A stretch of 64,000 nt of DNA. It comes from Lactifluus volemus. Its lineage: Eukaryota > Basidiomycota > Agaricomycetes > Russulales > Russulaceae. Where the stretch lies: assembly GCA_022376515.1 (NCBI GenBank), contig WTXI01000008.1, positions 682,001 to 746,000 on the forward strand, read 5' to 3'. Numbering within the stretch: the first letter of the stretch is position 1; the number at the start of each line of letters is the position of its first letter. This document shows positions 12,461 through 58,270 of this stretch, piece by piece. A model generated the notes under the pieces. That model saw only the letters and a program-made list of their open reading frames with translations. It was not told the origin of the DNA and ran no database searches. Both the position numbers and the translations under genes were made by a program.

Positions 12461-13276
12461 TCATTCATCACAATCCGATGGTGTGCGTCCAAACACATCT
12501 TCCATCTTGTTTGCAACATGTCCCATTGCCTCTTTATACCCGTCTTCCCGCGCTTTTTGTATAATGTCTTCTAATGAGTGGCCGTTTATTGTGATCTTAC
12601 TCGGCTCTATCGAGTTCGTAACGAGTGCTTGCGAGTTTACCAATGCGTCGATACGATTAGAGGGTGCTTTGGCTGTGCACGGTGCACATGAATCATAGTG
12701 CACACCGTGAGGGACATGGGGTGTGCACGGCGCACAAGAAGAGTAGTGCACACCGTGAGGGACATGGAGAGTGCATGGCGCACAAGAAGAGTAGTGCACA
12801 CCGTGAGGGACATGGGGAGTGCATGGCGCAGATGAAGCATAGTGCACAGCGTGGGCTGTACACATTTTGCGCAGCTTACTAGGCATGGGGTGGTCCGTTT
12901 GTGTCGCCTGCGTTATGCGGGAAGATGGCCCGGGACTAGGATGTGGAGGATCCGTTTGCACACTCTTTCCGTTGTAATGCAATGGAATTTGCATCGGAAA
13001 AGCTTGCAATGAGGGCACTGGAGGGTTTGATAAAGCAAGAGCAATATGGGGTGCTATTGAATCGCACGTACCTTCTGTGTCTGGGCGTGATCCTGCTACC
13101 TGCTGGGTCTCCTCGATCTCTATGACCTCCGGTGGCAATGGCCGCGGCTTACTTCCGCCAATAAACCCGGATGAGACGTGGTAGCCCAGCATTTCATTGA
13201 CCTCGTTAGGGGGGGCGTGAATTGGGTTGAACCTGTCACTGCAACCCCTTCTAGGGGGGAGTCTTGTAGCCGGCAT
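12461..13276 (-). CDS. Transposon passenger protein 2 with CxxC tandem repeats
   Basis: A single uninterrupted frame of 271 codons, ATG 13274-13276 to stop 12461-12463. Its N-terminal half is Pro-rich. Between about residues 140 and 205 lie nearly four copies of a 16-residue repeat (HYSSCAPCTPHVPHGV), each with a Cys-Ala-Pro-Cys pair that could bind metal or form disulphides. The C-terminal ~70 residues are charged and helical (ITINGHSLEDIIQKAREDGY). The gene lies between the two copies of the duplicated GC-rich module and inside the transposon. I do not recognise the family. Confidence 0.55.
   Translation of the reverse strand: MPATRLPPRRGCSDRFNPIHAPPNEVNEMLGYHVSSGFIGGSKPRPLPPEVIEIEETQQVAGSRPDTEGTCDSIAPHIALALSNPPVPSLQAFPMQIPLHYNGKSVQTDPPHPSPGPSSRITQATQTDHPMPSKLRKMCTAHAVHYASSAPCTPHVPHGVHYSSCAPCTLHVPHGVHYSSCAPCTPHVPHGVHYDSCAPCTAKAPSNRIDALVNSQALVTNSIEPSKITINGHSLEDIIQKAREDGYKEAMGHVANKMEDVFGRTPSDCDE
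12664..12855 (-). repeat. 48-bp coding tandem repeat (CxxC peptide)
   Basis: Nearly four copies of a 48-bp unit containing GTGCACACCGTGAGGGACAT. They are in frame, so copy-number change would not break the protein. Third-position and amino-acid differences are few, which suggests recent expansion. Confidence 0.8.
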
Positions 13277-14115: not shown

Positions 14116-17100
14116 TTACTCTTCATAATCTACTGGATTATAATCATCGCCCTGTCCAATAATGAATGCATCTAAACCTGGTTTCTCTACTACAAAAAAT
14201 CGTTCACTTGCTGCTCCATCGCTCGGTTTCATGGGTATTAGTGCCACAACAGAGAGGATAGAATTGACCTCGATAACACGCAGATCACTCGCGCCCATAT
14301 GCGAGCATACATACAATGTACCATGCGACAGACCAAGCAGTCGCGCATCCGGTTCAGACCACATTGACACAAGCGCATACTTGCGCACCGTTCCGGAGTG
14401 GTTGCTGAGAAAGTAGAACTGGACTACCGCAAAACGGGGAGTCCGATCTAATAGTATCTAGATGCATCTGTTCAGTGGGGTTCATCGCGTACATATCTTG
14501 GATGAGATGCAAGTCACCTTAACATTGTGAGAGCACCGTGCTTCTCGAGACCCTCCGCCCTCTTGGTAGAGCTGGCTCCACCACGCACGAGAGATTTGTT
14601 GATTTGGTAGGCGAAGTCTTGCCCATCGTATGACCTTCGGTGTCCAGTCTTCAGCGAGAGCCTCCACCTCTGAGAGCATGAATTCGCGAAATGCATCGGC
14701 ATATGCACCATCGAGTAGACGTGCGCTCGTGTCCTTTGTACCGAGAAGAACGTAATCGTCATCTTGCGATTTGATTGCACCGCCGGGAACGTGCACATCA
14801 GTGTCATCGAAATCGGGAATTATAGCCTTCAGAGCATTGACTTGACTGCGCCTAAGCCCGCGGTTCGCAATATTTGAAAAGGGGTTCGAAGGTTGCTTCA
14901 TCTCCTGTCCCAGACTTCCGATAGTACGTTCAAGCGTCCATTGCTGAATATACACTCCCGGGCCAATGCGCACAGTCTCCCGTGCGAGATGGGCCATGGC
15001 GTGGATGCTCTGGCGTACAAAATGTAGCCTTGCAGGGAGTCGAGCGTAATAGAGGTTCTCGAACTCTTCAACAAACTCGAGGAGGAGGCTGTGTGCAGCA
15101 ACCAACTGCTCTACCTCGATGCGCCGCTGGTGGATGATCCGCACGCCTTGCACAAGCTTACAGAAGTGCTTCCAGTACGCATCAGGTAGTATGCCCAGAA
15201 ACAGAGCTGGTCCCAGGCCAAAGATGTACATTAGAAATTCCCATGCCTTATAACCGCTCGAAATCTTATCTGCTGGATTTCGAGGGGGTCGATCAAACGA
15301 CCCGGGCAAGTATGGCTTGCACAGTGCAACTTCGTGGCCATGCATCCGCCAGACATCGCCAACGAGACAGAGCCACGGCCAGTCCGATTTTGAGTCATCC
15401 TTATCGCAATCGATAGTCCCGCGCCATAGCCCCAGAAAGAGATCGGGTAGATTAAGCGAGATAAGATGCATGATGTCTATCGCGAAGCACCTCGGAGGTG
15501 CCAGGGACCGTCGAGGATTTAATCCGCTGAAGATACTTGGTTTACAGATCCCAGTCTCCCTGCGCACTCGTTTGTAATGTGTGTCATTGCGGCTCTGCAG
15601 CAATCTACGCAAACCGTCCTGGTACAGATCGGGCGAGGGACCTGCAAGCTTATAGATATCGATGTCATCATGATCGCAACCAGAGACATCATAGTCCAAT
15701 GGCTTTAGCATTGCAGGGTAGTAATGCGGTCCATTGTCCTTGTGCCTGCCTTTAAGACCGCAATAGAGACGACAGCCAAAGGCTCCGTGATGTCCGACTT
15801 GTCCATGAAGCTGGGACAGTCCGGGGCCATCAGCCATGCCCAGATATAAGAATGGGAATGATGTAAACACGCGATCGAGGCTAGCGTCCCAGATCCGAAG
15901 TCCATCCCGCTGGAGAGCGGCGAGATGGTATAGTCCCGGGAATAGGAAGGAGTCCAAGTTTTTGGGCTTATGAGGACCCGGTATAAAGCCACCTGGAAGG
16001 ACGTACTTCTTCTTGTATCGCAGATCCGGTGGCAAATCGAGCAAGACCCAGATGTAAATCCAACAGTCTGATTGCTTGTGCTGGTACAGCTGAGCACCAT
16101 CGATCGATAACATAAGAACGGTGTCGTCGGGCTTAATGTCCCCCTCGAGGACAGCCCGAGTGAATTCTTCCGAAGAATATATATCGCTATATTCATCGAT
16201 AGGCAGACTTTGTGTGATCTTATCAACAATCAATTCCATTGCACGCCGACGATGGCCCATGTTGTATGCAGCCTTCTCGCTGCGCCACTGCGCCTGGATC
16301 TGTGGGCCGATGGGGATCGTTATAAATTGCTTTCGCGGCCGTGTTGACACCTTATTCTTCTGCCTGACATTCTCATAACGTGCCTCCTGACACACCGGAC
16401 AGATTGTTTTATCGCGGAATGGACCTGTGAACCCAATGCACGAGTTCACACACATATCTGTCATAACTGGCTCGATCGCTGTAAGCTCCTGAATGTATAG
16501 TTTAATTCGCGCATGCGAGAGTAGATCGGCGTCCGGAAGGCGGCGCTTGACCGCAGCCAATGTCTTCTTGTATGTTTCCTCAGAGCCACTTGTCGTTGCC
16601 AAGAATAGATCTAGACACAATCGTATGTCTTTGTCCAATAGATCCACTTGCGATGTAACTGGTGTGCGAAGTCGTTGGCGGGCATCTTCGGACAATTGAT
16701 CGCGATCTAAGGTTGCCGCACGCAGCTCTTCAATAAAGGATAATGCAGTTTGAAGCGCAGCGACATTGGGGACAATGCGACCAGCCGGATCAGGACAGAG
16801 ATCGTCAAAGAACCCAGGTGAATCATCTGGGATCGCATCACGACCAACATAGACGTCCGAGTCGGAGAGCTCAGCGCCATCAGCGGGGGTAGCGGTAGAA
16901 TAATCTACTGGGTGTGGATCTATAGCAGCGGACAATCTCTGATCGCTCTGATAGATCTGATCATCTGATCCATGATCAGGAAAGAAAGAGTCGTCCCGTT
17001 CATGATCAAATCCAGCATCGGAGCGAATTTGATCTTCTTGTGAGGTATTCTCCGTCTCATGTGCAAGGGTGGGTGGACGCGCTACATCATTCGCACGAGG

Positions 17101-17448
17101 ATCATGTATATCCGAGGTGGTTTGGGACCGAATACCCAGATTTGAGTCAGAATCAGAGCGGATAGATATCTTTTGCGTTCCGGATCGGTTTACTTTCCAA
17201 TACACTTAAGGAAACATCGCATCGAGAGCGAAAAAATGCACACCATTCCCATAGCTCCCCACGGATGGGACTCGCGTAGGCTGATCGGATATTCCGCCCG
17301 TCCGTATTCTAAGCTCTTCGCGATAATCCGCGTCCCGGAACGGCCGATGACGGAAATAAGTCGCTTTAGATACGGATCTCTTCTCTTTACAATGTCGTGA
17401 GCACGAGCAGTACCATTCCTCGCCCTCTGGTGTATTTGGCATCGACAT
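14116..17448 (-). CDS. Plavaka-type transposase
   Basis: The main exon (17205 to about 14520) carries the family hallmarks: PVMTDMCVNSCIGFTGPF, ICPVCQEARY, DDTVLMLSIDGAQLYQHKQS, LPGGFIPGPHKPKNLDSFLF, LFLGLWRGTIDCD and the C-terminal IGSLGQEMKQPSNPFSNI. The N-terminal exon (17448 to about 17245) supplies the zinc-finger-like start EWYCSCSRHCKEKRSVSKAT. The C-terminal exon (about 14420-14116) continues FYFLSNHSGTVRKYALVS through FFVVEKPGLDAFI. The last intron fits GTGACT near 14519 and CCAG before FYFL. The protein is about 1,050 residues. It should cut and insert the element by binding its ends and subterminal repeats. DDE-type catalysis is expected from the family, but the catalytic triad was not mapped. 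It looks potentially active because no internal stops interrupt the 900-codon exon. Confidence 0.85.
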
Positions 17449-23793: not shown

Positions 23794-25325
23794 TCAGACA
23801 GCGTCGGCATTATCATTAGTGTAGGTAGATGTTAGTTGTACCGTTGGGTTGACTTCGTCAGGGAGTTGAGGTGATTCGTCTAGAGGTCCGTCAGATGATG
23901 TCACGGTGGACTCCAAAGGTGAATCCTGCTGCTCGATATCAATGTCGGACTTCAAATCGCCGGTGATGGAAACAGAGTCGGAGGGGATGGAAGGTAGATC
24001 GGAGAATGAAAGGATGGAATCGTGCCTCTTTCTTGACTTGACCGCGGAAGCCCTGACATCGGCAGTTTTTCTCGACGACATCGTGCTGCAAAGACGTGTG
24101 CCAGTGAGTCTCAACAATACGAAACCCAGATTTGAATTTACTAATACGTACGCATGCGGTGATCCAGACGACTTTGAGAAACGGGTACGACGAGTAATCG
24201 ACGAGTAAACTCGACGATAATGATCCCTTGCCTCTTCCGCAAAGCCGAAGAAAGCGAAGAAAGCGAAGGAGCAATAAACGAGTGACCAGGCATCTACTTC
24301 CAGTATGACATGTTCCACCGGATTACTCTGCCATTCGGTGGTTGAGTATTGAGGAACGTGGGTGTAATTGTGGCGAAGGAGGGACCAACTAAACTTGTAC
24401 AAACCGCTCTTCAAGGTATAGCTCAGCAAAAATGAGGAGTACGGAACTACTATAATCATCTCGGAACAGCACAGCAGCATCAAGCGAATGTAGCGATTCC
24501 GTTGCAGGCCTTGGTGTGGCGCCAGAACCTCCGCCAGCTTACGCTTGCGCTTGATGAAGTGATAGAGTATCATAGCTATCGATAAATAAGCTTGAGGAAT
24601 AGAGGGGGGTGTTAAAAGTGCATACGTACAGCAGTAGACGAAAGACACACAGCCGATCACAAGGGGCCATGCGTTGAAGAGGAGTATAGCGGGTACGGTG
24701 AACGAGGACAGCATTTGGCACCCGAGATCCTCAAAAATCCCATAACTGTATGGGGTCACAATATACTCTGCATCACATCTATTTATTAATAAACTGATGC
24801 AAGTCGGGAGGGTCATTGAGCACACTTACGGAGTCCCATCGCCAAAATTGGGAGACCAGCGGTAATGAGTAGATCAACGATGACTATACGGCGTTTCTCA
24901 TCCCGTGTGACCGCTCCGGCTTGCCGAACGAGAACCTTGTAGAGGCGACGGTACATACAAAGTGTGCAAGCCGGGATTCCAATGCCAATCCCGACTTGAA
25001 GGCGGGTCACTGGCGAGTCCGTTAACGGGTGTATGGGAAATGAGCATTCAGCCTTACCGATATCACAGTAGATCGGAGCCTTGTCGAGCACATTTCCACG
25101 CCATAGGATCGAGTTGATGAAATATATCAGACATCCGAGAGCGGTCCATATCATATACATGCAAGTTCCCGTGTTCCAAGCTGTGACGTGGGCCTTTATA
25201 TTCAAACATGGATGACCACTCGTAAATTGCAGCTTACCTTGAAGATGCCAGTAGAGTGGAATAACAGAAAGTACGATGCCAATGAAAGAACAGACGGTAT
25301 AGGCCCGATTCACAGTTGAACTCAT
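23794..25325 (-). CDS. STE3-type pheromone receptor, copy 1
   Basis: The start is ATG 25323-25325 (MSSTVNRAYTVCSF). Exons 25325-25238, 25180-25058 and 25009-24830 lead into a fourth with LQYIVTPYSYGIFEDLGC. The stop is TGA 23794-23796. All seven membrane segments of class D GPCRs are visible: CSFIGIVLSVIPLYWHLQ, TCMYMIWTALGCLIYFIN, VGIGIGIPACTLCMYRRLY, VDLLITAGLPILAMGLQ, VPAILLFNAWPLVIGCVSF, LMLLCCSEMIIVVPYSS and WSLVYCSFAFFAFFGFAEEA. The tail after ARDHYRRVYSSITRRTRFS is acidic and Ser/Thr-rich (DIDIEQQDSPLESTVTSSDG). It senses a farnesylated mating pheromone at the plasma membrane and signals through a heterotrimeric G protein to the MAPK cascade. Intact by eye. It is the leftmost and last of the array in its own direction of transcription. 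Confidence 0.9.
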
Positions 25326-26244: not shown

Positions 26245-26581
26245 GACTTGGGGCCACTGGCGAGACCGTCAATGGGTGTTTGGGAAATAAACATCAGCCT
26301 TACCGACATCACAGTAGATCGGAGCCTTGTCGCCGTTGTCGAGCACGTTTCCGCGCCATGGGATCGAGTTGATGAAAGATATCAGACATCCGCCGAGAGC
26401 GGTCTATCATGATATCATATACATGTAATTTCCCGTGTTCCAGGCTGTGACGTGGACCTTTATATTCAGACCATTCGTAAATTGCAGCTTGCCTCGAAGA
26501 TGCCAGTAGAACGGAAAAACAGAAAGTGCGATGCCAATGAAAGAAAAAGACGGTATAGACCTGATTCACAGTTGAACTCAT
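26245..26581 (-). pseudogene. STE3 receptor relic (exons 1-2 only)
   Basis: It begins at ATG 26579-26581 with MSSTVNQVYTV, matches exon 1, intron 1 and exon 2 of the intact receptors, then stops at the GCCACTGGCGAG border of exon 3. Indels break the frame (FFFHWHRTF in place of SFIGIV, and extra CGCCGTTGT-type insertions near 26330-26400). No exon 3 or later exons follow. It is therefore a truncated, decayed seventh copy. Confidence 0.85.
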
Positions 26582-27124: not shown

Positions 27125-28663
27125 TCAGACAACATCGGCGCTATCAGTAGTGTGGGTAGATGTTAGTTGTACCGTTGGGTTGACTTCGTCAGGGAGTTGA
27201 GGTGATTCGTCTAGAGGTCTGTCGGATGATGGCACGGTGGACTCCAAAGGTGAATCCTGCTGCTCGATATCAATGTCGGACTTCAAATCGCCGGGGATGG
27301 AAACAGACTCGGAGGGGATGGAAGGTAGATCGGAGAATGAAAGGATGGAATCGTGCCTCTTTCTTGACTTGACCGCGGAAGCCATGACATTGGCAGTTTT
27401 GCTCGACGACGCCATGCTGCAAAGTCGTGAGTCCAGCAATACGAACGCGGGTTGAAACTACTACTACGTACGGATGCGATGATCCAGTGAAAGTAATACC
27501 AGAAGACCTCGAGAAACGGATACGAGTCATACGACGAGTAATCGACGAGTAAAGTCGACGATAATGATCCCTCGCGTCATCCGCAAAGCCGAAGAAAGCA
27601 AAGAAGATGAAGGCGCAAAAAACGAATGACCAGACATCCATTTCGGCTATGGCATAGTCCACCGGATTACTCTGCCATTCGATGGCTGAGAGCTGAGGAA
27701 CGTGGGTATAATTGTGGCGGAGCGTGGACCAACTAAACTTGTACAAACCGCTCTTCAGGCTATTGCTCAGCAAAAATGAGGAGTACGGAACTACTATAAT
27801 CATCTCGGAACAGCACAGCAGCATCAATCGAATGTAGCGATTCCGTTGCAGGCCTTGGTGTGGCGTCATTACCTCCGCCAGCTTGCGCTTGCGCTTGATG
27901 AAATGATAGAGTATCATAGCTGTCAATAAATGAGCTGGAGGACTAGAAGGGGATGTTAAAAGTGCATACGTACAGCAGTAGACGAAAGACACACAGCCAA
28001 TCACAAGGGGCCATGCGCTGAAGAGGAGTATAGCGGGTACGGTGTAAGAGGTCACTACTAAGCACCCGATATCCTCAAGAATATAGTAACTATATGGGGT
28101 CACAATATACTCTGAATCACGTCCTATTTAAACAAATGCAAGTCGGGAGGATTATTGAGCAAACTTACGGAGTCCCATCGCCAAAATCGGGAGACCAGCG
28201 GTAATGAGTAGATCAATGATGACTGTACGACGTTTCTCATCCCGTGTGACCGCTCCGGCTTGCCGAACGAGAACCTTGTAGAGGCGACGGTACATACAAA
28301 GTGTGCAAGCCGGGATTGCAATACTAATCCCGACTTGAAGGCGGGCCACTGGCGAGTCCGTCAACGTGTGTTTGGAAAACAAACATCAGGCTTACCGATA
28401 TCACAGTAGATCGGAGCCTTGTCGAGCACATTTCCACGCCATAGGATCGAGTTGATGAAAGATATCAGACATCCGAGAGCGGTCCATATCATATACATGC
28501 AAGTTCCCGTGTTCCAAGCTGTGATGCGGGCCTTTATATTCAAACATGGACGACGATTCGCAAATTGCAGCTTACCTTGAAGATGCCAGTAGAGTGGAAT
28601 AACAGAAAGCACAATGCCAATGAAAGAACAGACGGTATAGGCTCGATTCACAGTTGAACTCAT
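27125..28663 (-). CDS. STE3-type pheromone receptor, copy 2
   Basis: The start is ATG 28661-28663 and the stop 27125-27127, with the same exon plan as copy 1. The third extracellular region reads LKSGLYKFSWSTLRHNYTHV and the following loop QLSAIEWQSNPVDYAIAEM, differing from copy 1 at several sites. The fifth segment starts GCLVVTSYTVPAILLFSA. It has an extra RMTRI and GITFTGSSHPY after the seventh segment, shared with copy 5. The tail is like copy 1 with PGDLKSDIDIEQQ. All key segments are open and splice sites look usable. Confidence 0.88.
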
Positions 28664-30932: not shown

Positions 30933-31169
30933 GCTTTTCCTGGTCCGGCTTGCCTCTAGGCAAAGGCGGGCCGGGGATTTGATCACGTGACCATAGTTGA
31001 AACGTGTGGCATCCGCTGAGGATTTATTCTAACACCAGTCACAACCAGGTTTGAATTCAAATACATCTCTAATGTAATGGGCTACATATTACATATAAAT
31101 ACGAGGGGTAGTCAAATGGCTGTGCAAAAGTTCCTAAAATAAACGAAAGAACGAGTCACAGAGACAAGT

Positions 31170-32689
31170 TCAGACAGCGTCGGCGCCATCAGTAGTGTGG
31201 GTAGATGTTAGTTGTACCGTTGGGTTGACTTCATCAGGGAATTGAGGTGATTCGTCTAGAGGTCCGTCGGATGATGTCACGGTGGACTCCAAAGGTGAAT
31301 CCTGCTGCTCGATATCAATGTCGGACGTCAAATCGCCGGTGATGGAAACAGAGTCGGAGGGGATGGAAGGTAGATCGGAGAATGAAAGGATGGAATCGTG
31401 CTTCTTTCTTGGCTTGACAGCGGATGCCATGACATTGGCAGTTTTGCTCGACGACATTATGCTGCAAAGACGTGAGTCCATCAATACGAACCCAGATTTG
31501 AACTACTACTACGCACGCATGCGGTGATCCAGATGACTTCGAGAAACGGATACGACGAGTAATCGACGAGTAAACACGACGATAATGATTCCTCGCGTCA
31601 TCCGCAAAGCCGAAGAATGCGAAGAAGATGAAGGCGCAATAAACGAGTAACCAGGCATCCACTTCGTCTGTGGCATATTCCACCGGATCACTCTGCCATT
31701 CGATGGTTGAGTACTGAGGAACGTGGGTGTAATTGTGGCGGAGGGTGGACCAACTAAACTTGGTCAAACCGCGCTTCAAGATAGTGCTCAGCGAATATGA
31801 GGAGTACGGAACTACTATAATCATCTCGGAACAGCACAGCAGCATCAAGCGAATGTAGCGATTCCGTTGCAGGCCTTGGTGCGACGCCATTATCTCCGCC
31901 AGCTTACGCTTGCGCTTGATGAAGTGATAGAGTATCATAGCTGTCAATAAATAAGCTTGAGGAATAGAAGGGGATGTTAAAAGTGCATACGTACAGCAGT
32001 AGACGAAAGACACACAGCCGATCACAAGGGGCCATCCGTTGAAGAGGAGTATAGCGGGAATAGTGTTAGAGGACAGCATTTGGCACCCGAGATCCTCAAA
32101 AATCCCATAACTGTATGGGGTCACAATGTACTCTGCATCACATATATTTATTAATAAACAGATGCAAGTCGGGAGGATCATTGAGCACACTTACGGAGTC
32201 CCATCACCAAAATCGGGAGACCAGCGGTAATGAGTAGATCAATGATGACTGTACGACGTTTCTCATCCCGTGTGACCGCTCCGGCTTGCCGAACGAGAAC
32301 CTTGTAGAGGCGACGGTACATACAAAGTGTGCAAGCCGGGATTCCAATACTAATCCCGGCTTGAAGGCGGGCCACTGGCGAGTCCGTCAACGGATGTTTG
32401 GAAAACAATCATCAACCTTACCGATATCACAGTAGATGGGAGCCTTGTCGAGCACGTTTCCACGCCATAGGATCGAGTTGATGAAATGTATCAGACATCC
32501 GAGAGCGGTCCATATCATATACATGCAAGTTCCCGTGTTCCAAGCTGTGATGTGGGCCTTTATATTCAAACATGGACGACGATTCGTAAATTGCAGCTTA
32601 CCTTGAAGATGCCAGTAGAGTGGAATAACAGAAAGCAAGATGCCAATGAAAGAACAGACGGTATAGGCTCGATTCACAGTTGAACTCAT
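31170..32689 (-). CDS. STE3-type pheromone receptor, copy 3
   Basis: The start is ATG 32687-32689 (MSSTVNRAYTVCSFIGIL) and the stop 31170-31172. It has the standard receptor exon plan. Distinctive residues are LSTILKRGLTKFSWSTLRHN in the loop after the sixth segment, YSTIEWQSDPVEYATDEVDA before the seventh, and SNTIPAILLFNGWPLVIGC in the fifth. The tail starts HACVVV and the cytoplasmic end keeps DIDIEQQDSPLESTVTSSDG. Closest to copy 4 in tail and spacer. Intact by eye. Confidence 0.88.
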
Positions 32690-33377: not shown

Positions 33378-34883
33378 TCAGACAGCGTCGGCGCTATCAG
33401 TTGTGTGGGTAGATGTTAGTTGTACCGTTGGGTTGACTTCATCAGGGAGTTGAGGTGATTCGTCTAGAGGTCCGTCGGATGATGTCACGGTGGACTCTAA
33501 AGGTGAATCCTGCTGCTCGATATCAATGTCGGACGTCAAATCGCCGGTGATGGAAACAGAGTCGGAGGAGATGGAAGGTAGATCGGAGAATGAAAGGATG
33601 GAATCGTGCTTCTTTCTTGACTTGATAGCGGATGCCATGACATTGGCAGTTTCACTCAACGACATCATGCTACAAAAGACGTGAGTCCATCAATACGAAC
33701 CCAGATTTGAACTACTACTACGCACGCATGCGGTGATCCAGATGACTTCGAGAAACGGATACGACGAGTAATCGACGAGTAAACACGACGATAATGATTC
33801 CTCGCGTCATCCGCAAAGCCGAAGAATGCGAAGAAGATGAAGGCGCAATAAACGAGTGACCAGGCATCCACTTCGACTATGGCATATTCCACCGGATCAC
33901 TCTGCCATTCGATGGTTGAGTACTGAGGAACGTGGGTGTAATTGTGGCGGAGGGTGGACCAACTAAACTTGTACAAACCGTGCTTCAAGATAGTGCTCAG
34001 CGAATATGAGGAGTACGGAACTACTATAAGCATCTCGGAACAGCACAGCAGCATCAAGCGAATGTAGCGATTCCGTTGCAGGCCTTGGTGCGACGCCATT
34101 ACCTCCGCCAGCTTACGCTTGCGCTTGATGAAATGATAGAGTATCATAGCTGTCAATAAATGAGCTAGAGGAATAGAAGGCGAAAGTTAAAAGTGCATAC
34201 GTACAGCAGTAGACGAAAGACACACAGCCGATCACAAGGGGCCATGCATTGAAGAGGAGTATAGCGGGTACGGTGTAAGAGGTCACTACTAAGCACCCAA
34301 TATCCTCAAAAATTCCATAACTATATGGGGTCACAATATACTCTGCATCACATCTATGTAAACAAATGCAAGTCGGGAGGATTATTGAGCAAACTTACGG
34401 AGTCCCATCACCAAAATCGGGAGACCAGCGGTAATGAGTAGATCAATGATGACTATACGGCGTTTCTCATCCTGTGTGACCGCTCCGGTTTGCCGAACGA
34501 GAACTTTGTAGAGGCGACGGAAAATACAGAGTGTGCAAGCCGGGATTCCAATGCCAATCCCGACTTGAAGGCGGGTCACTGGCGAGTCCGTCAACGGGTG
34601 TTTGGAAATGAGCATCAGGCTTACCGATATCACAGTAGATCGGAGCCTTGTCGAGCACGTTTCCACGCCATAGAATCGAGTTGATGAAATATATCAGACA
34701 TCCGAGAGTGGTCCATATCATATACATGCAAGTTCCCGTGTTCCAAGCTGTGTTTATATTCAAACATGGACGACGATTCGTAAATTGCAGCTTACCTTGA
34801 AGATGCCAGTAGAGTGGAATGACAGAAAGCAAGATGCCAATGAAGGAACAGACGGAGTAGGCCCAATTCTCAGTTGAACTCAT
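33378..34883 (-). CDS. STE3-type pheromone receptor, copy 4
   Basis: The start is ATG 34881-34883 (MSSTENWAYSVCSFIGIL) and the stop 33378-33380. Intron 1 is shorter than in the sister copies. Other differences are CTLCIFRRLYKVLVRQTGAV with TQDEKRR in place of TRDEKRR, and LSTILKHGLYKFSWSTLRHN. Tail and 3' flank are almost the same as copy 3, which makes the 3/4 pair the most recent-looking duplication. Intact by eye. Confidence 0.87.
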
Positions 34884-35566: not shown

Positions 35567-37066
35567 TCAGACAGCGTCGGCGCCATCAGTAGTGTGGGTA
35601 GATGTTAGTTGTACCGTTGGGTTGACTTCGTCAGGGAGTTGAGGTGATTCGTCTAGAGGTCCGTCGGATGGTGTCACGGTGGACTCTAAAGGTGAATCGG
35701 CGATGGACACAGATTCGGAGGGGATGGAAGATTGATCGGAGAATGAAAGGATGGAATCGTGCCTCTTTCTTGACTTGGCTGCGGAAGCCATGACATTGGC
35801 AGTTTTTCTCGACGACGCCATGCTGCAAAGTCGTGAGTCCAACAATATGAACCCGGGTTGAAACTACTACTACGTACGGATGCGATGATCCAGTGAAGGT
35901 AATACCAGACGACTTCGAGAAACGGATACGAGTCATACGACGAGTAATCGACGAGTAAACTCGACGATAATGATCCCTCGCGTCATCCGCAAAGCCGAAG
36001 AATGCGAAGAAGATGAAGGCGCAACAAACGACTGACCAGGCTCCTATTTCTATTATGGCATATTCCACCGGATCACTCTGCCATTCGATGGTTGAGTACT
36101 GAGGAACGTGGGTATAATTGTGGCGAAGGGAGGACCAACTAAACTTTTCAAAACCGACGTTAAAGGAATAGATCAGCATAAATGAGGAGAGCGGAACTGT
36201 TATAAGCATCTCGGAACAGGCCAGCAGCATCAAGCGAATGTAGCGACTCCGTTGCAGGCCTTGGTGCGACGCCATTACCTCCGCCAGCTTGCGCTTGCGC
36301 TTGATGAAATGATAGAGTATCATGGCTGGCGATAAATGAGCTGGAGGAATAGAAGGATGTTAAAATGTGCATACGTACAACAATAGACGAAAGACAGACA
36401 GCCGATCACAAGGGGCCATGCGACGAAGAGGAATATAGCGGGTATGGTGTCCGAGGACAGCATTTGGCACCCGAAATCCTCATAGATTCCATAACTATAT
36501 GGGGTCACAATATACTCTGCATCACATCTATTTCAACAGATGCAAGTCGGAGGGTCATTGAGCACACTTACGGAGTCCCATCACCAAAATCGGGAGACCA
36601 GCGGTAATGATTAGATCAACGATGACTATACGACGTTTCTCATCCCGTGTGACCGCTCCGGCTTGTCGAACGAGAACCTTGTAGAGGCGACGGTAAATAC
36701 AAAGTGTGCAAGCCGGGATTGCAATACTAATCCCGGCTTGAAGGCGGGCCACTGGCGAGTCCGTCAACGGGTGTTTGGAAAACAAACATCAGGCTTACCG
36801 ATATCACAGTAGATCGGAGCCTTGTCGAGCACATTTCCACGCCATAGGATCGAGTTGATGAAAGATGTCAGACATCCGAGAGCGGTCCATATCATATACA
36901 TGCAAGTTCCCGTGTTCCAAGCTGTGACGTGGGCTTTTATTTTCAAACATGGACGACCATTCGCAAATTGTAGCTTACCTTGTAGATGCCAGTAGAGTGG
37001 AATAACAGAAAGCAAGATGCCAATGAAAGAACAGACGGTATAGGCCCTATTCTCAGTTGAACTCAT
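35567..37066 (-). CDS. STE3-type pheromone receptor, copy 5
   Basis: The start is ATG 37064-37066 (MSSTENRAYTVCSFIGIL) and the stop 35567-35569. The loop after the sixth segment is strongly changed: SSFMLIYSFNVGFEKFSWSS. The segment before the seventh reads PVEYAIIEIGAWSVVCCAF. The cytoplasmic tail has lost the block GDLKSDIDIEQQ present in copies 1-4, in frame (ESVSIADSPLESTV). It shares RMTRIRFSKSSGITFTG with copy 2. Likely functional and a candidate for altered ligand specificity. Confidence 0.87.
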
Positions 37067-37780
37067 GACGATTGTTCGAATGCGAAGAAGATAAAATGGC
37101 TGTTGTGATCTGGGGCACCGCCAGTGGGCCACTAGCAATGGGCATACGAATAGAAAACGAATGTCTGCTGTGACTCGCCACGGGAGGCAAAGTAGATGAG
37201 TGGGTACCAGAAAACATCTTGCTATGAGCTTTCAATCAAGAAACAAGCGACGCGGCGACGCCCACAAAAGCGGGCATCCCCTTGTCACGGTTTTCCTCGT
37301 TCATCTTGGGTGCATTGAATGATTGAAAGAGATCCTTGAAAAGCAACGTCATTTTGACCTTCCTAAAAAAGAACAATGTCCAACAAGACGTCCAGGATTA
37401 GAAAAGGTCTCGGCGTCTCGCCTTCGTGCTCGATCACCACAAAACCCGATACTAGTGTATTGCGCCCTGGCCATCACTACAGCCCCTGCAATCCCAAGAT
37501 ACGAGTTAAATTGACCTCAGACGCTAACAAGTGGTAGTGCTGTTCCTGGCCCGGCTTGCCTCTGGGCGACGGAAGGGCCGGCCGGTGAGGGCGGGGATTT
37601 GATCCCGTGACCATAGTTAAAACTTGTGGCATCCGCTGAGATTTATTCTAACATCAGTCACAACCAGTTTCGAATTCAAATACATTTTGTAATGGGCTAC
37701 ATATAAATACAGGGGGTAGTTAAATGGTTGTGCAAAAGTTCGTAAAATAAACGAAAGAAGAACGAGTCACAGAGACAAGT

Positions 37781-39297
37781 TCAGACAGCGTCGGCGCCAT
37801 CAGTAGTGTGGGTCGATGTTAGTTGTACCGTTGGGTTGACTTCATCAGAGAGTTGAGGTGATTCGTCTAGAGGTCCGTCGGATGATGGCACTGTGGAGTC
37901 TAAGGGTGAATCCTGCTGCTCGATTTCAATGTCGGACTCGGCGTGGGAAACAGACTCGGAGGGGATGGAAGGTTGATCGGAGAATGAAAGGATGGAATCG
38001 TGCCTCTTTCTTGACTTGACAGCGAATGCCATGACATTGGCACTTTTATTCGACGACATGCTGCAAAGACGTGAACCCAACATACGAATCCAGATTGAAA
38101 TACGTACGCATGTGATGATCCGGGGAAGGTAAGAGCAGACGACTTCGAGAAACGGATACGACGAGTAATCGACGAGTAAAAACGACGATAATGATCCCTT
38201 GCCTCTTCCGCAAAGCCGAAGAACGCGAAGAAGATGAAGGAGCAATAAACGAGTGACCAGGCATCCGTTTCGATTATGGCATATTCCACCGTATCACTCT
38301 GCCATTCGACGGTTGAGTACTGAGGAACGTGGGTAAAATTGTGGCGGAGGGTGGACCAACTAAACTTGGTCAAACCGTGCTTGAAGGCATAGATCAGCAA
38401 AAATGAGGGATACGGAACTGTTATAAGCATCTCGGAACAGGCCAGCAGCATCAAGCGAATGTAGCCGGTCCGATACAGCCCTTTGTGTGACGACATTACC
38501 TCCGCCAACTGACGCTTGCGCTTGATGAAATGATAGAGTATCATAGCTGTCAATAAATGAGCTGGAGAAATAGAAAAAGCGGTGTTAAAAGTGCATACGT
38601 ACAGCAGTAGACGAAAGACACACAGCCGATCACAAGGGGCCATGCGTTGAAGAGGAGTATAGCGGGAACGGTGAACGAGGACAGCGTTTGGCATTGGCAC
38701 CCGATATCCTCATAAATTTCATAACTATGTGGGGTCACAATATACTCTGCATCACATCTATTTCAACAGATGCAAGTCGGGAGGATCATTGAGCAAACTT
38801 ACGGAGTCCCATTGCCAAAACCGGGAGCCCAGCGGTAATGATTAGATCAATGGTGACTGCACGACGTTTATCAGCCCGGGTGATCGTTACGGCTTGCCGA
38901 ACGAGAATTTCGTAGAGGCGGCGGGTAATACAAAGTGTGCAAGCCGGGATTGCGATACTAATCCCGGCTTGAAGGCGGGTCACTGGCGAGTCCGTCAACG
39001 GATGTTTGGGAAATAAGCATCAGGCTTACCGATATCACAGTAGATCGGAGCCTTGTCGAGCACATTCCCGCGCCATAAGATCGAGTTGATGAAAGATATC
39101 AGACATCCGAGAGCGGTCCATATCATATACATGCAAGTTCCCGTGTTGCAAGCTGTGATGTGAAGCTTCATATTCAAAGTTGAACGACCATTCGCAAATT
39201 GCAGCTTACCTTGAAGATGCCAGTAGAATGGAATAACAGAAAGCACGATGCCAATGAAAGAACAGACAGTATAGACCTGATTCACAGTTGAACTCAT
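37781..39297 (-). CDS. STE3-type pheromone receptor, copy 6 (most divergent)
   Basis: The start is ATG 39295-39297 (MSSTVNQVYTVCSF) and the stop 37781-37783. It differs from all others in the third exon (CITRRLYEILVRQAVTITRA with DKRRAVTIDLIITAGLPVL), in the third cytoplasmic region (RKRQLAEVMSSHKGLYRTGY) and in the loop YPSFLLIYAFKHGLTKFSWS with RHNFTHV. The tail keeps EIEQQDSPLDSTVPSSDG but lacks the TGDLK block. It is the first receptor of the array in the direction of transcription and the closest to the pheromone gene. Its divergence suggests it is the oldest copy or one held under distinct selection. Confidence 0.87.
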
Positions 39298-41236
39298 GGC
39301 GATTATTCAAATGCGAAGAAGATCAAGTGTGATCTGGGGGCACTGGGCTGGGCTGTGACCCGCCACGGGTAAAGCCAATGAGTAGGTAGCAGAAAACATC
39401 TTGCGGTGAGCTTTAAGAAATAGGCCACACTCCCTTGTATTCGTCGGTGAGCTTTAAGAACTAAGCCACACTCCCTTGTATTCGTCGCTCATCTCTGGAA
39501 GGAACCTTCCTAAAAAGGACATTCGTGAGAAAAGGTTAGGTAAGCGTGGTCCCTGGAATATGTGGGAAGAAATAGGAAGCGGCAGATAACCGCTCTTGCT
39601 ACTGTAGGGTGAAGAAAGGGAGGAGTGGATCGCCATGAGTAGCCTCATAGTGATATACATCACCCTTCGTAACCCAGCCTTTTTCAAAGGCGAGGTTGGC
39701 CAACGCTACCATTGTGAAATCATGATGTCATCATGCTCGATTTAGTGGTCTCGGCCGGGTTACAGCTCACAACAGGTGATACGAAAGATACCGTCTTTTT
39801 TTTGCCACAAGGATTGAGTCTCGGTCTCGCTTACTGTATGTATGGCGTTTCGTTTGATCCGCGGAACGTGTGGCGACGTTCAATTAGCGCGCATCGTTAT
39901 TGTTGTTGTCGATGGGTGGTGGTGGGGGGTTCCGACTCTCGGGCAGTGGCCTTCGTAGTTTGCGATGCCCGCCTCGGCCACCACCGCCACCACCGAGCTG
40001 TCTGCCGAAGGCACAGCCGCTTCGGAATCACTTTGAACTGGGACATCCACTGACACGGGGATCATGGAGAGGGCACACATCCTCTAAGAAAGCGCTGCGC
40101 GCTCTGAGATTTGGCTGGCGAAGGTGATAGAATCGTTAGCTTTTGCAATGACCACCACGAATACGACTCTTATTCGCTGGGAATGGAGTAGGAAAAACAA
40201 AGTTCATAAGGCGAAAATTAAATTCAAGCCAAGTGAGCCTGCAGCTCGATCTGTTTGATCTGCTTCTACCGACGTACTGTAGATCGTTTGGGCAAGTCCT
40301 TCCTTCCTAATGTGTCCTTGTGTGGGTGTAAGCTGGAGTTCGCTTGGGTACGGGCTGTGAGGATGCTTTAATGTTCGCAGTATCTCGTACCGTGGTCGTA
40401 CCGGGACGACCGAGTCAGGAGGAGGAGGGAGCCAATGAACCTACAGGACGTCTGCAAAGAGCCTTTAAGCACAAGATGGAGACAGTGGCAATGCGACATG
40501 CGAAAAGTCGTCAAGAGTCACAGTCAAGGACATTTTCTGTTTTCCCAGTATCCAAAGGTGTTAATTCTCGGGTGAGGGAGATGGTGGGGGGTGGGGAGTG
40601 GGGGAGCGTCGATGAACCAGAACCCCTACGACTCTCAGGACTGATGGAAGCTTCAGCGCTTCAGTCCTTTTTGTTTGTGTCGCTTTTTGTTTTGATATTG
40701 TTTGGTTATCGTATCAGTTGGTAAACTGACACAGGGCGCTCGAATTTCGCAAAACCACCCGGCACCAAACCCGGCACATACCCATACGGCGCTTCTCCAA
40801 GGCATTCCATAAAGGTCGTTGCAGTGGGAGTACAGTGTGGTAACGCATATGGTGGATACATCCTAACACGCCTTTTTTTTTGAATCCAAGAGAGCATTCG
40901 TGGAACAGGGTTCATATTCCGAGTCGTGGCCAACAAAACTTCGCTCTTCGTATCCCGGTCATGCGGCCGTTTCGTAACACACCGTTCCGCGTTTTTTCAC
41001 ATGAACGACCTGTACAACAATAGCAGGAAATAAATGGTGACATGATCTATAGTGTTTGGGCATGGTCACAATGGTTGTTCGTACTCCAGTCGTGGACAAA
41101 GAACAGGTCATACGTTCCCGCTCACGGTGCTGACTGAATTGTTGTGGTGTCGTGCCATCTTTCTCTATTGTTTTGAACCTCATCTTCTCCATCGTCGTTT
41201 TCTTCTAGGGTAACACGCGCCCATGGAACGTCAACG
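39298..41236. other. Spacer between receptor 6 and the pheromone gene
   Basis: Near 39410-39490 a ~42-bp unit (TGAGCTTTAAGAA ... CCTTGTATTCGTCG) is tandemly duplicated. No coding frame with family or splice support was found on either strand. It holds the shared upstream flank of receptor 6 and the 5' flank of the pheromone gene. Confidence 0.5.
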
Positions 41237-41244
41237 TATAAAAG
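41138..41244 (+). promoter_or_regulatory. Putative pheromone-gene promoter: two ATTGTT boxes and a TATA box
   Basis: ATTGTT occurs at 41138-41143 and 41167-41172, the core bound by HMG-box mating regulators. TATAAAAG lies at 41237-41244, 61 bp before the ATG. Spacing fits a TATA-driven gene. Regulation by an HMG factor is inference from other basidiomycetes. Confidence 0.45.
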
Positions 41245-41304
41245 GAGACGCTAGCAGCTAGCAGACCTACATCTTCAACCCTCTAAACTCCCGCTAACAA
41301 ATCA

Positions 41305-41421
41305 ATGGACTCATTCGCCGTCGACATCTCTGCCATATTCTCCGTTCCCTACCCCGAGCGGCCTGATCACCCCACCGATGGCGACAGCTCTGGCGATCCC
41401 AACCGTTGCGTCATCGCGTAA
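41305..41421 (+). CDS. Lipopeptide mating pheromone precursor (CaaX)
   Basis: A 38-codon frame starting MDSFAVDISAIFSVPYP and ending GDPNRCVIA before TAA at 41419-41421. Small size, an acidic Asp/Pro-rich body and a C-terminal Cys-aliphatic-aliphatic-Ala box are the three hallmarks of basidiomycete pheromone precursors. The Cys would be farnesylated and carboxymethylated after removal of VIA, and an N-terminal part cleaved to release a short peptide. It is linked to six STE3 receptors, 2 kb from the nearest and in the opposite orientation, as expected for a pheromone/receptor mating locus. A TATA box lies 61 bp upstream. The mature N-terminus cannot be fixed from sequence; cleavage before a charged pair such as ER or DR is usual. 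It is easy to miss in automated annotation because of its size. Confidence 0.88.
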   Translation: MDSFAVDISAIFSVPYPERPDHPTDGDSSGDPNRCVIA

Positions 41422-42133
41422 TGGGCATTTTCCACAACACTCTGAAAATGACCAGCAGGACTGGCAAGTGATTTTCCTTTGCTTCCTATAATAATGCGCA
41501 ACTTATTCTTCACCCGGCACGTCACAGCACCTAATTAACCCCACTTCCAGTTCTGTTGCATTTTCATTACAGTAGACTGGCTCATATGCGTAATGGCTTG
41601 TCCATACTCAAACTTACCCAAATGCTATGCGTTATGAGCCAGTCTACTCTATTTCGTTCTCCCATCTGTCTTTCTCCCTTAATTGTATCAGGACAACACA
41701 GGTGTCCTTTGACTTTCGATTATCACCTGTCGTTTGAGTACATCTTGATTTATTGTGTATTACCCTGTGCCAGTGGATGTATCGTCATTCTCTATGACAA
41801 TAATAGGGCATCTTCCGATAATTGGAAATTTTTTTAATGTTGGATGATGTCGACTAGGCCGCCTCTATCGCAAAACTCGCCGGAGTTGCCCAAGCAGGAG
41901 TTCGGAGTCAGGGCATCGCGTGTTCATGTGAACGTCACAAGAGATAGACTGAATTCGGCAAACCGTTTCTCATACGCTGTAATTGTTGTTGTCTCTACGG
42001 AGGAAGTACCTGTACATGGGGTAAATCTGCGGCTCCATAGATCAAGTGACTTGATTGTTTGTAATATGTCGTCTAGTTGGCGACCAGGGACAATGATACT
42101 GCAGTCAAATTAGTGTGATGTCGTGCGGCATCA
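41422..42133. other. Pheromone 3' flank with a 16-bp inverted repeat
   Basis: Arms AGTAGACTGGCTCATA (41571-41586) and TATGAGCCAGTCTACT (41633-41648) are perfect inverted repeats separated by 46 bp, about 150 bp beyond the pheromone stop. A stem-loop in the 3' UTR or a small foldback element are both possible. The plus frame 41556-41837 has no recognisable family. Confidence 0.6.
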
Positions 42134-56714: not shown

Positions 56715-58270
56715 AGGATGAAGAACGCTGGGATGCCCCCGAACAACGGCAGAAGCTCGTCTGGGTTCTGCTAGTCGAGCTGCTATCTTACCAGTTTGCT
56801 TCTCCCGTACACTGGATCGAAACCCAAGATCTATTCTTCGGACAGTACAGGTTTGAGCGCTTCATCGAGATTGGCCCATCCCTAACTCTTACTGGTATGG
56901 CTGTACGCACCCTCAAGGCCAAATACGAGGAGGAACTTGGCGCTGCCCTTGCGCCTGGTCACTCCGGTAATCTCGGGAAGTATTCCACAAGTCTCGTGTC
57001 GCATGCAATTGGTGGCAAGATGCCCGGTGGTTTCAACATCTCAAGTGCGAAAGCTCACCTTTCTAAGGCATGGGGCTTGGGTCCCCAATGCGCCGACGCC
57101 GTGCTACTGATTGCTACCACCATGGAGCCCGCCAAGCGCCTGGGCTCAGAGGCCGAGGGTAAAGCTTAGCTCGACGCCGCTGCACAAGTCTATGCTCAGC
57201 GTGTAGGCATCACTCTTTCTACTGGTGGTTCCGGCAGTGGTGCAGGAGGCTCTTCTGGACGCGCTGTGATGAACAGCCAGGAATTCCTCAAGTTCCAAGC
57301 TGAGCGGTATGAATTCGTGCACCAGCAAATCATCCTCTACTCTCGCTACTTGAAGCGTGACCCCCGCCAAGGAGAGATTCTGCACGACAAAGAGAAGGCC
57401 ACCTCCACACAGCTTCAAGCTCGACTCGACAATATTGCGCGTGAGCACGGCGATGCCTACATTGACGGTGTCCAGCCCGTCGTTGATGCGTTGAAGGCTC
57501 GTTACTTCGACTCCTCGTGGAATTGGGTTCGTCAAGACGCTCTCCTCATGTCCTACAATATCCTCTACAGCCGTCTCACTACCGTCGACCGTGCGATCAC
57601 TGCCCGTTGTATCGCCATAATGGATCACGCAAACCCCAATCTCATTAAATTTGGTCAAGAACTCCTCGACAGTTGCCGTGGTGTAGTTGGCCAGCTGCCG
57701 TTGTATAAGGACGGTGAGGGTTTCCTATCAGACCCATCGCATCTCTCATACGCTCCTTTAGTCACATTTCCCACCGCGCCTCGCAGCGAAATCACTGAGA
57801 AGGGTAATATCGTCTACTCTGAAGTCAACCGGGAGAACGTACGCAAATTAGAGGCGTATGTGGAGGAGATGGCCAGTGCCGATCAGATTTCTGGTTCGGT
57901 TAACATTCAAGAAGGTCCAGGATGATGTCGTCAAACTCTGGAACGTCGTCAAGTCTCAGCCAGAAATCAGCGAGGAGCAGAAGAACGTATCAAGGCCCTT
58001 TATGATGGCGTCGTCCGTTCGCTGCGCAAGGCACCTGATAACCGCCCGCGCCCTGGTGTCCCCCGTAGCCGTCGTTCATCATCCCAGTTCGTGCAGCCTC
58101 ATCGCCTCAGTGTCTGCTGACAAGATTCCCCTCTTCCATCTCAAGCGTCGCATCAGTACCCAGTGGGAGGACAGCTCTAATCTGACAGGTGTCTACCTGG
58201 ATGTGTTCTCCATGAGATTGCCACCTCTGGCACAACCACAGATCGGGATGGCAACATCAAGAGTCTCCCT
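56715..58270 (+). pseudogene. Fatty acid synthase relic, MPT end and alpha-subunit part
   Basis: Continues the FAS reading: DEERWDAPEQRQKLVWVLLV, ELLSYQFASPVHWIETQDLF, RFERFIEIGPSLTLTGMAVR, TLKAKYE. It then jumps directly to ELGAALAPGHSGNLGKYSTS, skipping the acyl-carrier region. KMPGGFNISSAKAHLSKAWG follows, then a TAG stop at 57167-57169, then QVYAQRVGITLST, VMNSQEFLKFQAERYEFVHQ, NWVRQDALLMSYNILYSRLT and KVQDDVVKLWNVVKSQPEIS. The ketoreductase, ketosynthase and PPT parts are absent. Stop codon, deletion and missing domains make it a pseudogene. The fusion of MPT end and alpha sequence fits a single-chain basidiomycete FAS. Confidence 0.85.

Follow-up and report, generated by a model that had tools for sequence, protein, structure and literature searches.

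The question raised by this locus is whether a short frame beside an array of STE3 receptor genes is a mating-pheromone gene and, if so, whether gene and receptors together set mating type. The 64,000-nucleotide stretch analysed as a whole, hereafter the window, covers positions 682,001-746,000 of C607, a 1,067,002-base contig of Lactifluus volemus (Russulales); the assembly examined comprises 62.4 Mb in 628 contigs. An earlier reading of the letters alone (the sequence-only reading) had called the frame a CaaX pheromone precursor, the only one of its kind against six receptors, and had taken the region for a B-type mating locus.

The probable pheromone reading frame and its promoter

Translation of positions 41305-41421 on the plus strand gives MDSFAVDISAIFSVPYPERPDHPTDGDSSGDPNRCVIA*, with the ATG at 41305 and the TAA at 41421. 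The ATG-to-TAA frame ending Cys-Val-Ile-Ala and the TATA box 61 bp upstream, both described before, were re-read exactly in the window (TATAAAA at 41237-41243, with 61 bases between its end and the ATG). The MDSF start is the MDSF-like N-terminal motif of basidiomycete CaaX pheromones, as described for such precursors (PMC8305134). A charged dipeptide (ER, EH, DR and others) is published at 10-15 residues from the precursor C-terminus (PMC3140503). The candidate ER at residues 18-19 sits further out, 16 residues from Cys35 and 19 from the C-terminus, and is absent from the copies at 464-531 kb in our alignment; a DH at residues 21-22 lies nearer. The 38-aa peptide was unmatched by the PF08015 (Pheromone) profile, and a search of the genome with this profile returned zero matches, but the controls went unmatched in that search too. 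Given that Flammulina pheromones score only 0.0013-0.45 against PF08015 (PMC3140503), a match to this profile was not taken as defining.

Table 1. Features of the pheromone gene and receptor array, in window coordinates.
Feature	Position	Strand	Remarks
STE3 receptor R1	23794..25325	-	five-exon 436-aa model, GT-AG splice sites picked by eye
Fragment of seventh STE3 receptor	26305..26460	-	profile match
STE3 receptor R2, domain span	27561..28525	-	best partner on C77 at most 92.4%
STE3 receptor R3, domain span	31582..32560	-	profile match
STE3 receptor R4, domain span	33791..34853	-	profile match
STE3 receptor R5, domain span	35967..36937	-	profile match
STE3 receptor R6, domain span	38188..39171	-	head-to-head with pheromone gene, about 2 kb apart
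Upstream part of duplicated unit	39640..41120	.	about 1.5 kb, repeated with pheromone genes elsewhere; no long frame
Core-promoter block GTCAACGTATAAAAGGAGA	41230..41248	+	conserved; includes TATA box
Pheromone precursor CDS	41305..41421	+	38 aa, single uninterrupted frame, MDSF...ERPDHPTDGDSSGDPNRCVIA*
ER dipeptide, residues 18-19	41356..41361	+	candidate N-terminal maturation site, after the published motif
Nine fast-diverging pre-Cys codons	41380..41406	+	presumed receptor-specificity part of mature peptide
CaaX box Cys-Val-Ile-Ala	41407..41418	+	from translation; fits Cys-aliphatic-aliphatic-X

The core-promoter block has no second match in the window at up to three mismatches, where 0.03 would be expected. 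A genome-wide search for the block GTCAACRTATAAAAKGAGA gives 12 exact matches, every one at a member of the pheromone family (counting second-haplotype and frame-disrupted copies); additional members carry it with one to three mismatches. Only close matches carry weight, given that the genome-wide count at up to three mismatches (52) does not beat that of a reversed control (54). Promoter, frame and 3' flank are shared by the family, and the upstream part of the duplicated unit is 69-87% identical to other pheromone units and 97% to the second haplotype. On the 3' side of the pheromone gene lies a MITE-like inverted repeat of 19 nt (41568-41586 and 41633-41651, 95% complementary, 46 nt apart), found also in the copies on contigs C35, C46 and C201; the 424.8-kb copy of C607 has a longer form of it, and the five copies aligned from 464-507 kb are without it.

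Could such a frame have arisen by chance, with a CaaX-like end and nothing behind it? A six-frame scan of the window turned up 25 frames that start with ATG and have Cys at position -4, and in the CaaX search of both strands that the sequence-only reading had proposed, one frame of 30-80 aa passes the tight CaaX rule. In 60 order-3 Markov simulations, however, windows held on average 0.5 tight-rule frames, with at least one in 38% of runs, so that chance could account for the CaaX frame taken alone. A CaaX frame combined with TATAAA 30-120 bp upstream appeared in 0 of the 60 runs. Chance is set aside because of the family described below: the peptide has matches at 11 other genomic positions, and the promoter block is conserved. 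Against twelve distinct intact loci, a retained promoter, external homologues and purifying selection, the roughly 0.5 frames per window expected from the CaaX rule leave an accidental frame next to no probability.

An expanded gene family with fast-changing codons

The peptide search of the genome recovered at least 12 places including the window copy, and two of the other 11 are second-haplotype copies. Peptide, promoter and paralogue searches together give at least 12 distinct intact loci, with 10 on C607, one on C35 and C289 (98.3% identical over 3.1 kb and counted as one locus) and one on C46, as well as at least four frame-disrupted copies (C607 at 511, 516 and 524 kb, and C201); all these counts are lower bounds. 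The intact genes on C607 lie near 424.8, 464, 469, 499, 503, 507, 520, 527, 531 and 723 kb, the last being the window gene. The earlier claim of a single such gene thus holds within the window, which contains one unit, and fails on the contig, where nine further intact copies are present. One unit at 466 kb of C607 is without its gene portion, and contig C527, which carries one unit, matches C607 near 462-464 kb at 99.9% identity and stops short of the gene. The C607 stretches read at 125-165 kb and 380-390 kb contained no family CaaX frame. The intact gene on C46 and the frame-disrupted one on C201 lie in DNA that is 96.4% identical over 1.7 kb, and the STE3 profile had no match on C35, C289, C46 or C201.

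None of the 14 aligned members departs from Cys at position -4 or an MD.F start, and all 12 intact loci, 36-45 aa in size, add a Pro/Asp core (P.D.D) to these two features; the final three CaaX residues vary among paralogues. Homologues with the same layout were found in other public sequences (P0002, P0003 and P0124), of which P0124 shares a PERPDHPTD core with the window pheromone. A contig of 13,674 bp is given for both P0003 and the receptor P0025, which suggests that pheromone and receptor are linked in another fungus as well. Two protein searches yielded no family member from nr or NCBI annotation, so these pheromone genes appear to be unlisted; Rhizopogon pheromone genes were likewise missed by automatic annotation (PMC5473757).

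Substitutions are unevenly spread along the precursor. Between the window gene and the C35 copy, the first 25 codons differ at 1 of 57 nonsynonymous and 7 of 18 synonymous sites (p = 1e-4), and over five pairs pooled, taken as independent from the look of the alignment and not from a tree, pN/pS for these codons is 0.42 (p = 0.007). Judging from these counts, purifying selection acts on the N-terminal two thirds of the precursor. The last nine codons ahead of the Cys behave differently: in the five pairs, 45 of 135 sites differ there, whereas the near flanks have 139 differences in 1591 (p = 5.6e-14) and the preceding CDS 39 in 372. A scan of six pairs placed the start of the most divergent 27-base window no more than 9 bases from that of this segment in every pair. 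One of the five pairs, 503k/507k, has a pre-Cys excess that is not significant alone (p = 0.057), and 520k/531k is the sole pair of nine with 0 of 27 pre-Cys differences.

Relative to the N-terminal part, nonsynonymous change before the Cys is 4.5-fold higher (37/104 vs 23/290, p = 3e-10), and synonymous change is raised there too (14/31 vs 15/79, p = 0.008), for a pN/pS of 0.81. With synonymous sites raised as well, and near flanks that may themselves be constrained, positive selection on the pre-Cys codons was dropped as a reading and is not claimed. Such counts do not tell diversifying selection from a hotspot of conversion or mutation. The divergence fits recurrent change at the receptor-contacting end of the peptide, short of proving positive selection.

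Family conservation, purifying selection, the MDSF/ER/CaaX layout and the head-to-head placement with STE3 genes at two loci lend good support to the naming of the frame as a CaaX pheromone precursor. We conclude that 41305-41421 is very probably a genuine mushroom mating-pheromone gene beside its receptors.

Receptors, haplotypes and mating type

The six receptors counted by the sequence-only reading are present as six STE3 genes, accompanied by one fragment. All are on the minus strand and share 88-93% DNA identity with one another. The R1 model is 95% identical to the public annotation P0004 (414 aa), and exact 12-mers from the window cover 401-412 residues, all but one or two, of each of the public L. 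volemus receptors P0004-P0008. For the sixth public receptor, P0009, window 12-mers cover 78 of 420 residues, and its gene presumably lies elsewhere on the same contig. By our own count of STE3 matches, C607 holds about 15 receptor genes, some containing stops that may be introns or damage. A receptor and a pheromone gene are divergent neighbours also at 423/424.8 kb, so that the linkage to STE3 recurs. A receptor gene at 384 kb has 79-83% DNA identity to the 423-kb gene and the window array; one at 387 kb had no DNA match to either in the same search. Off C607 and C77, STE3 matches amount to one gene, on the score-matched contigs C626/C596, and single short ones on C385 and C112. A separate subfamily, in both orientations, is made up by the receptors at 131-159 kb and at 929 kb; where these align with the window array, identity is mostly 65-73%.

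Other short frames among the receptors were considered as pheromones and rejected. The tail frames ending CTAI and CTTI (31112-31189 and 37720-37800) fall because the frame is not kept across receptor copies, with the equivalent start and CTAV of R1 in different frames (by eye, on part of the copies). The plus-strand CSLP frames at 28455, 32436 and 34684 are, by inspection, antisense of receptor exon 2. Around the array, the window also holds a 907-aa frame matching Transposase_21 (tnp2, PF02992, E 2.2e-10; 14485-17205, minus strand), likely a DNA transposon, a frame of short SAHREGHGECMAHKK-like peptide repeat units (12688-12882, plus strand) and, downstream of the array, a fatty acid synthase type I helical domain (PF18314, E 4.4e-47; 57170-57922, plus strand).

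STE3 genes thus stand together with pheromone genes, as in a B (P/R) locus, and a gene with a PBD domain (PAK type) lies at 250 kb of C607, about 456 kb from the window array; PAK flanks the MATB region in Trichaptum (PMC8970355). A mating-type locus would also differ in specificity between the nuclei of a dikaryon, and in this one assembly, with C77 taken as the second haplotype, the window array, judged by its sequence, does not. Along the 40 kb read, the array and C77 form collinear blocks that are 92-98% identical, with some insertions. The pheromone CDS is identical between the two contigs, and C77 ends 2.6 kb past it. R1 and R3-R6 pair with C77 copies at 97.9-99.7%, whereas R2 has no close partner, which is consistent with unequal exchange and leaves six receptor copies on C607 against five on C77. 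The other receptor clusters on C607 are represented largely by one assembled haplotype. The two HD haplotypes of the assembly, on contigs C1 and C95, share only 65-83% identity per 250-bp window but 97.9% along a 1.5-kb stretch about 4.5 kb off; this is the pattern of balanced mating-type alleles. Given that the array has the same pheromone and near-identical receptors while HD is strongly diverged, the array does not distinguish the haplotypes, and the pheromone gene on its own, as far as its sequence tells, probably does not tell mating types apart. The proposed B-type locus is therefore supported only in part, by its pheromone and receptor genes, with a PBD/PAK gene elsewhere on the contig, and not by the near-identity of both haplotypes at the array. 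The region has the appearance of a P/R locus without a part in setting mating type in this case, or of a shared sublocus; bipolar mushrooms retain P/R genes whose role in mating type has been lost (PMC8305134, PMC10598064).

The explanation that we consider best, and hold with good confidence, is that of a functional-looking farnesylated-lipopeptide gene from an expanded family, in an array shared by both haplotypes and signalling without mating-type discrimination. The sequence, the family, the conservation of its promoter, purifying selection, the linkage to receptors and the identity of the haplotypes are observed; from these we infer processing, ligand activity, receptor pairing and role. 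Cys35 would be prenylated, Val-Ile-Ala removed and the new end methylated, steps reported for precursors of this type (PMC8305134), and if the N-terminus is trimmed at ER18-19 or DH21-22, a lipopeptide of about 13-16 residues would be left. This peptide would activate STE3 G-protein-coupled receptors of the same or neighbouring hyphae. A retained promoter and leader with the fastest change in the pre-Cys residues would be expected if these residues choose the receptor. Given that the gene and the receptor array are common to both haplotypes, the array most likely signals without discriminating mating types, for example in fusion, nuclear migration or fruiting, and mating type would be set by the HD locus, perhaps together with another pheromone/receptor sublocus.

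That last option shades into a possible, if distinctly less probable, alternative in which L. volemus is tetrapolar with a classical B (P/R) locus, the window array being a shared sublocus and specificity residing in another C607 cluster (131-159, 384-424 or 460-531 kb). The wealth of receptor and pheromone genes on a contig that also has the PBD/PAK gene, a MATB neighbour elsewhere (PMC8970355), the unequal receptor numbers of the haplotypes and the largely single-haplotype assembly of the other clusters would all suit it. However, no second diverged STE3 set emerges from the assembly, and the DNA at 384.0-388.5 kb and 146-150 kb has no allele-like second copy on another contig, which missing haplotigs could explain; at 460-531 kb, the comparison is limited to the end piece C527. 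A different view, that the array is a decaying relict whose receptors and pheromone persist by duplication without signalling, draws on the receptor fragment, the four frame-disrupted pheromone copies and the unit without its gene portion. We regard it as unlikely in the face of N-terminal purifying selection, a conserved promoter and five public receptor models almost fully covered by the window. Slightly less likely still, C77 might be a recent segmental duplication or an assembly artefact with no bearing on mating type: it is short (80,153 bp) and without a close R2 partner, but its collinear blocks of 92-98% are near the levels at the HD flank (97.9%), C35/C289 (98.3%) and C46/C201 (96.4%).

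Returning to a shared, non-discriminating array, we tentatively entertain the further idea, more doubtful than the explanation itself, that the P/R system was uncoupled from mating-type choice and yet expanded into tandem arrays whose pre-Cys residues still diversify. If true, each nucleus would make many ligands and receptors common to both, a lipopeptide repertoire that goes beyond self/non-self choice. The combination of family expansion and allelic identity is the point of interest. The family offers a candidate ligand and receptor set for a mycorrhizal genus, for which no paper on Lactifluus or Lactarius mating genes was among the matches listed in the open-licence literature. The promoter signature GTCAACRTATAAAAKGAGA finds these unannotated genes, and near-identical units with the fastest change before the Cys are a natural test set for receptor-choosing residues.

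Comparison with known systems

The L. volemus precursors resemble those of other agaricomycetes (Rhizopogon, Flammulina and Coprinopsis) in being short, with an MDSF-like start, an internal charged dipeptide, a CaaX end and adjoining STE3 genes (PMC5473757, PMC3140503), and differ from them in the absence of a PF08015 match, an ER further from the Cys, the P.D.D core and a size of 36-45 aa. In Agaricus bisporus, Amanita phalloides and Coprinellus disseminatus, P/R genes are kept while HD alone sets mating type, and the allelic precursors of two Agaricus varieties are predicted to yield alike mature peptides (PMC8305134, PMC10598064). Agaricus is credited with four precursors and Amanita with two to five receptors, as against 12 intact precursor loci and, on one contig, about 15 receptor genes in L. 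volemus, whose bipolarity is itself a supposition. The L. volemus pheromone family is unusually large. P/R gene number is described as reduced in bipolar Boletales (PMC5473757); if both nuclei of L. volemus share the array, it would represent expansion without mating-type discrimination instead. The B locus of Rhizopogon vinicolor, likewise an ectomycorrhizal dikaryon with a larger P/R content, has six receptors and eight precursors (PMC5473757). Set against that locus, the window array of L. volemus is not diverged between haplotypes, and the L. volemus genes exceed both numbers, many of them in tandem units.
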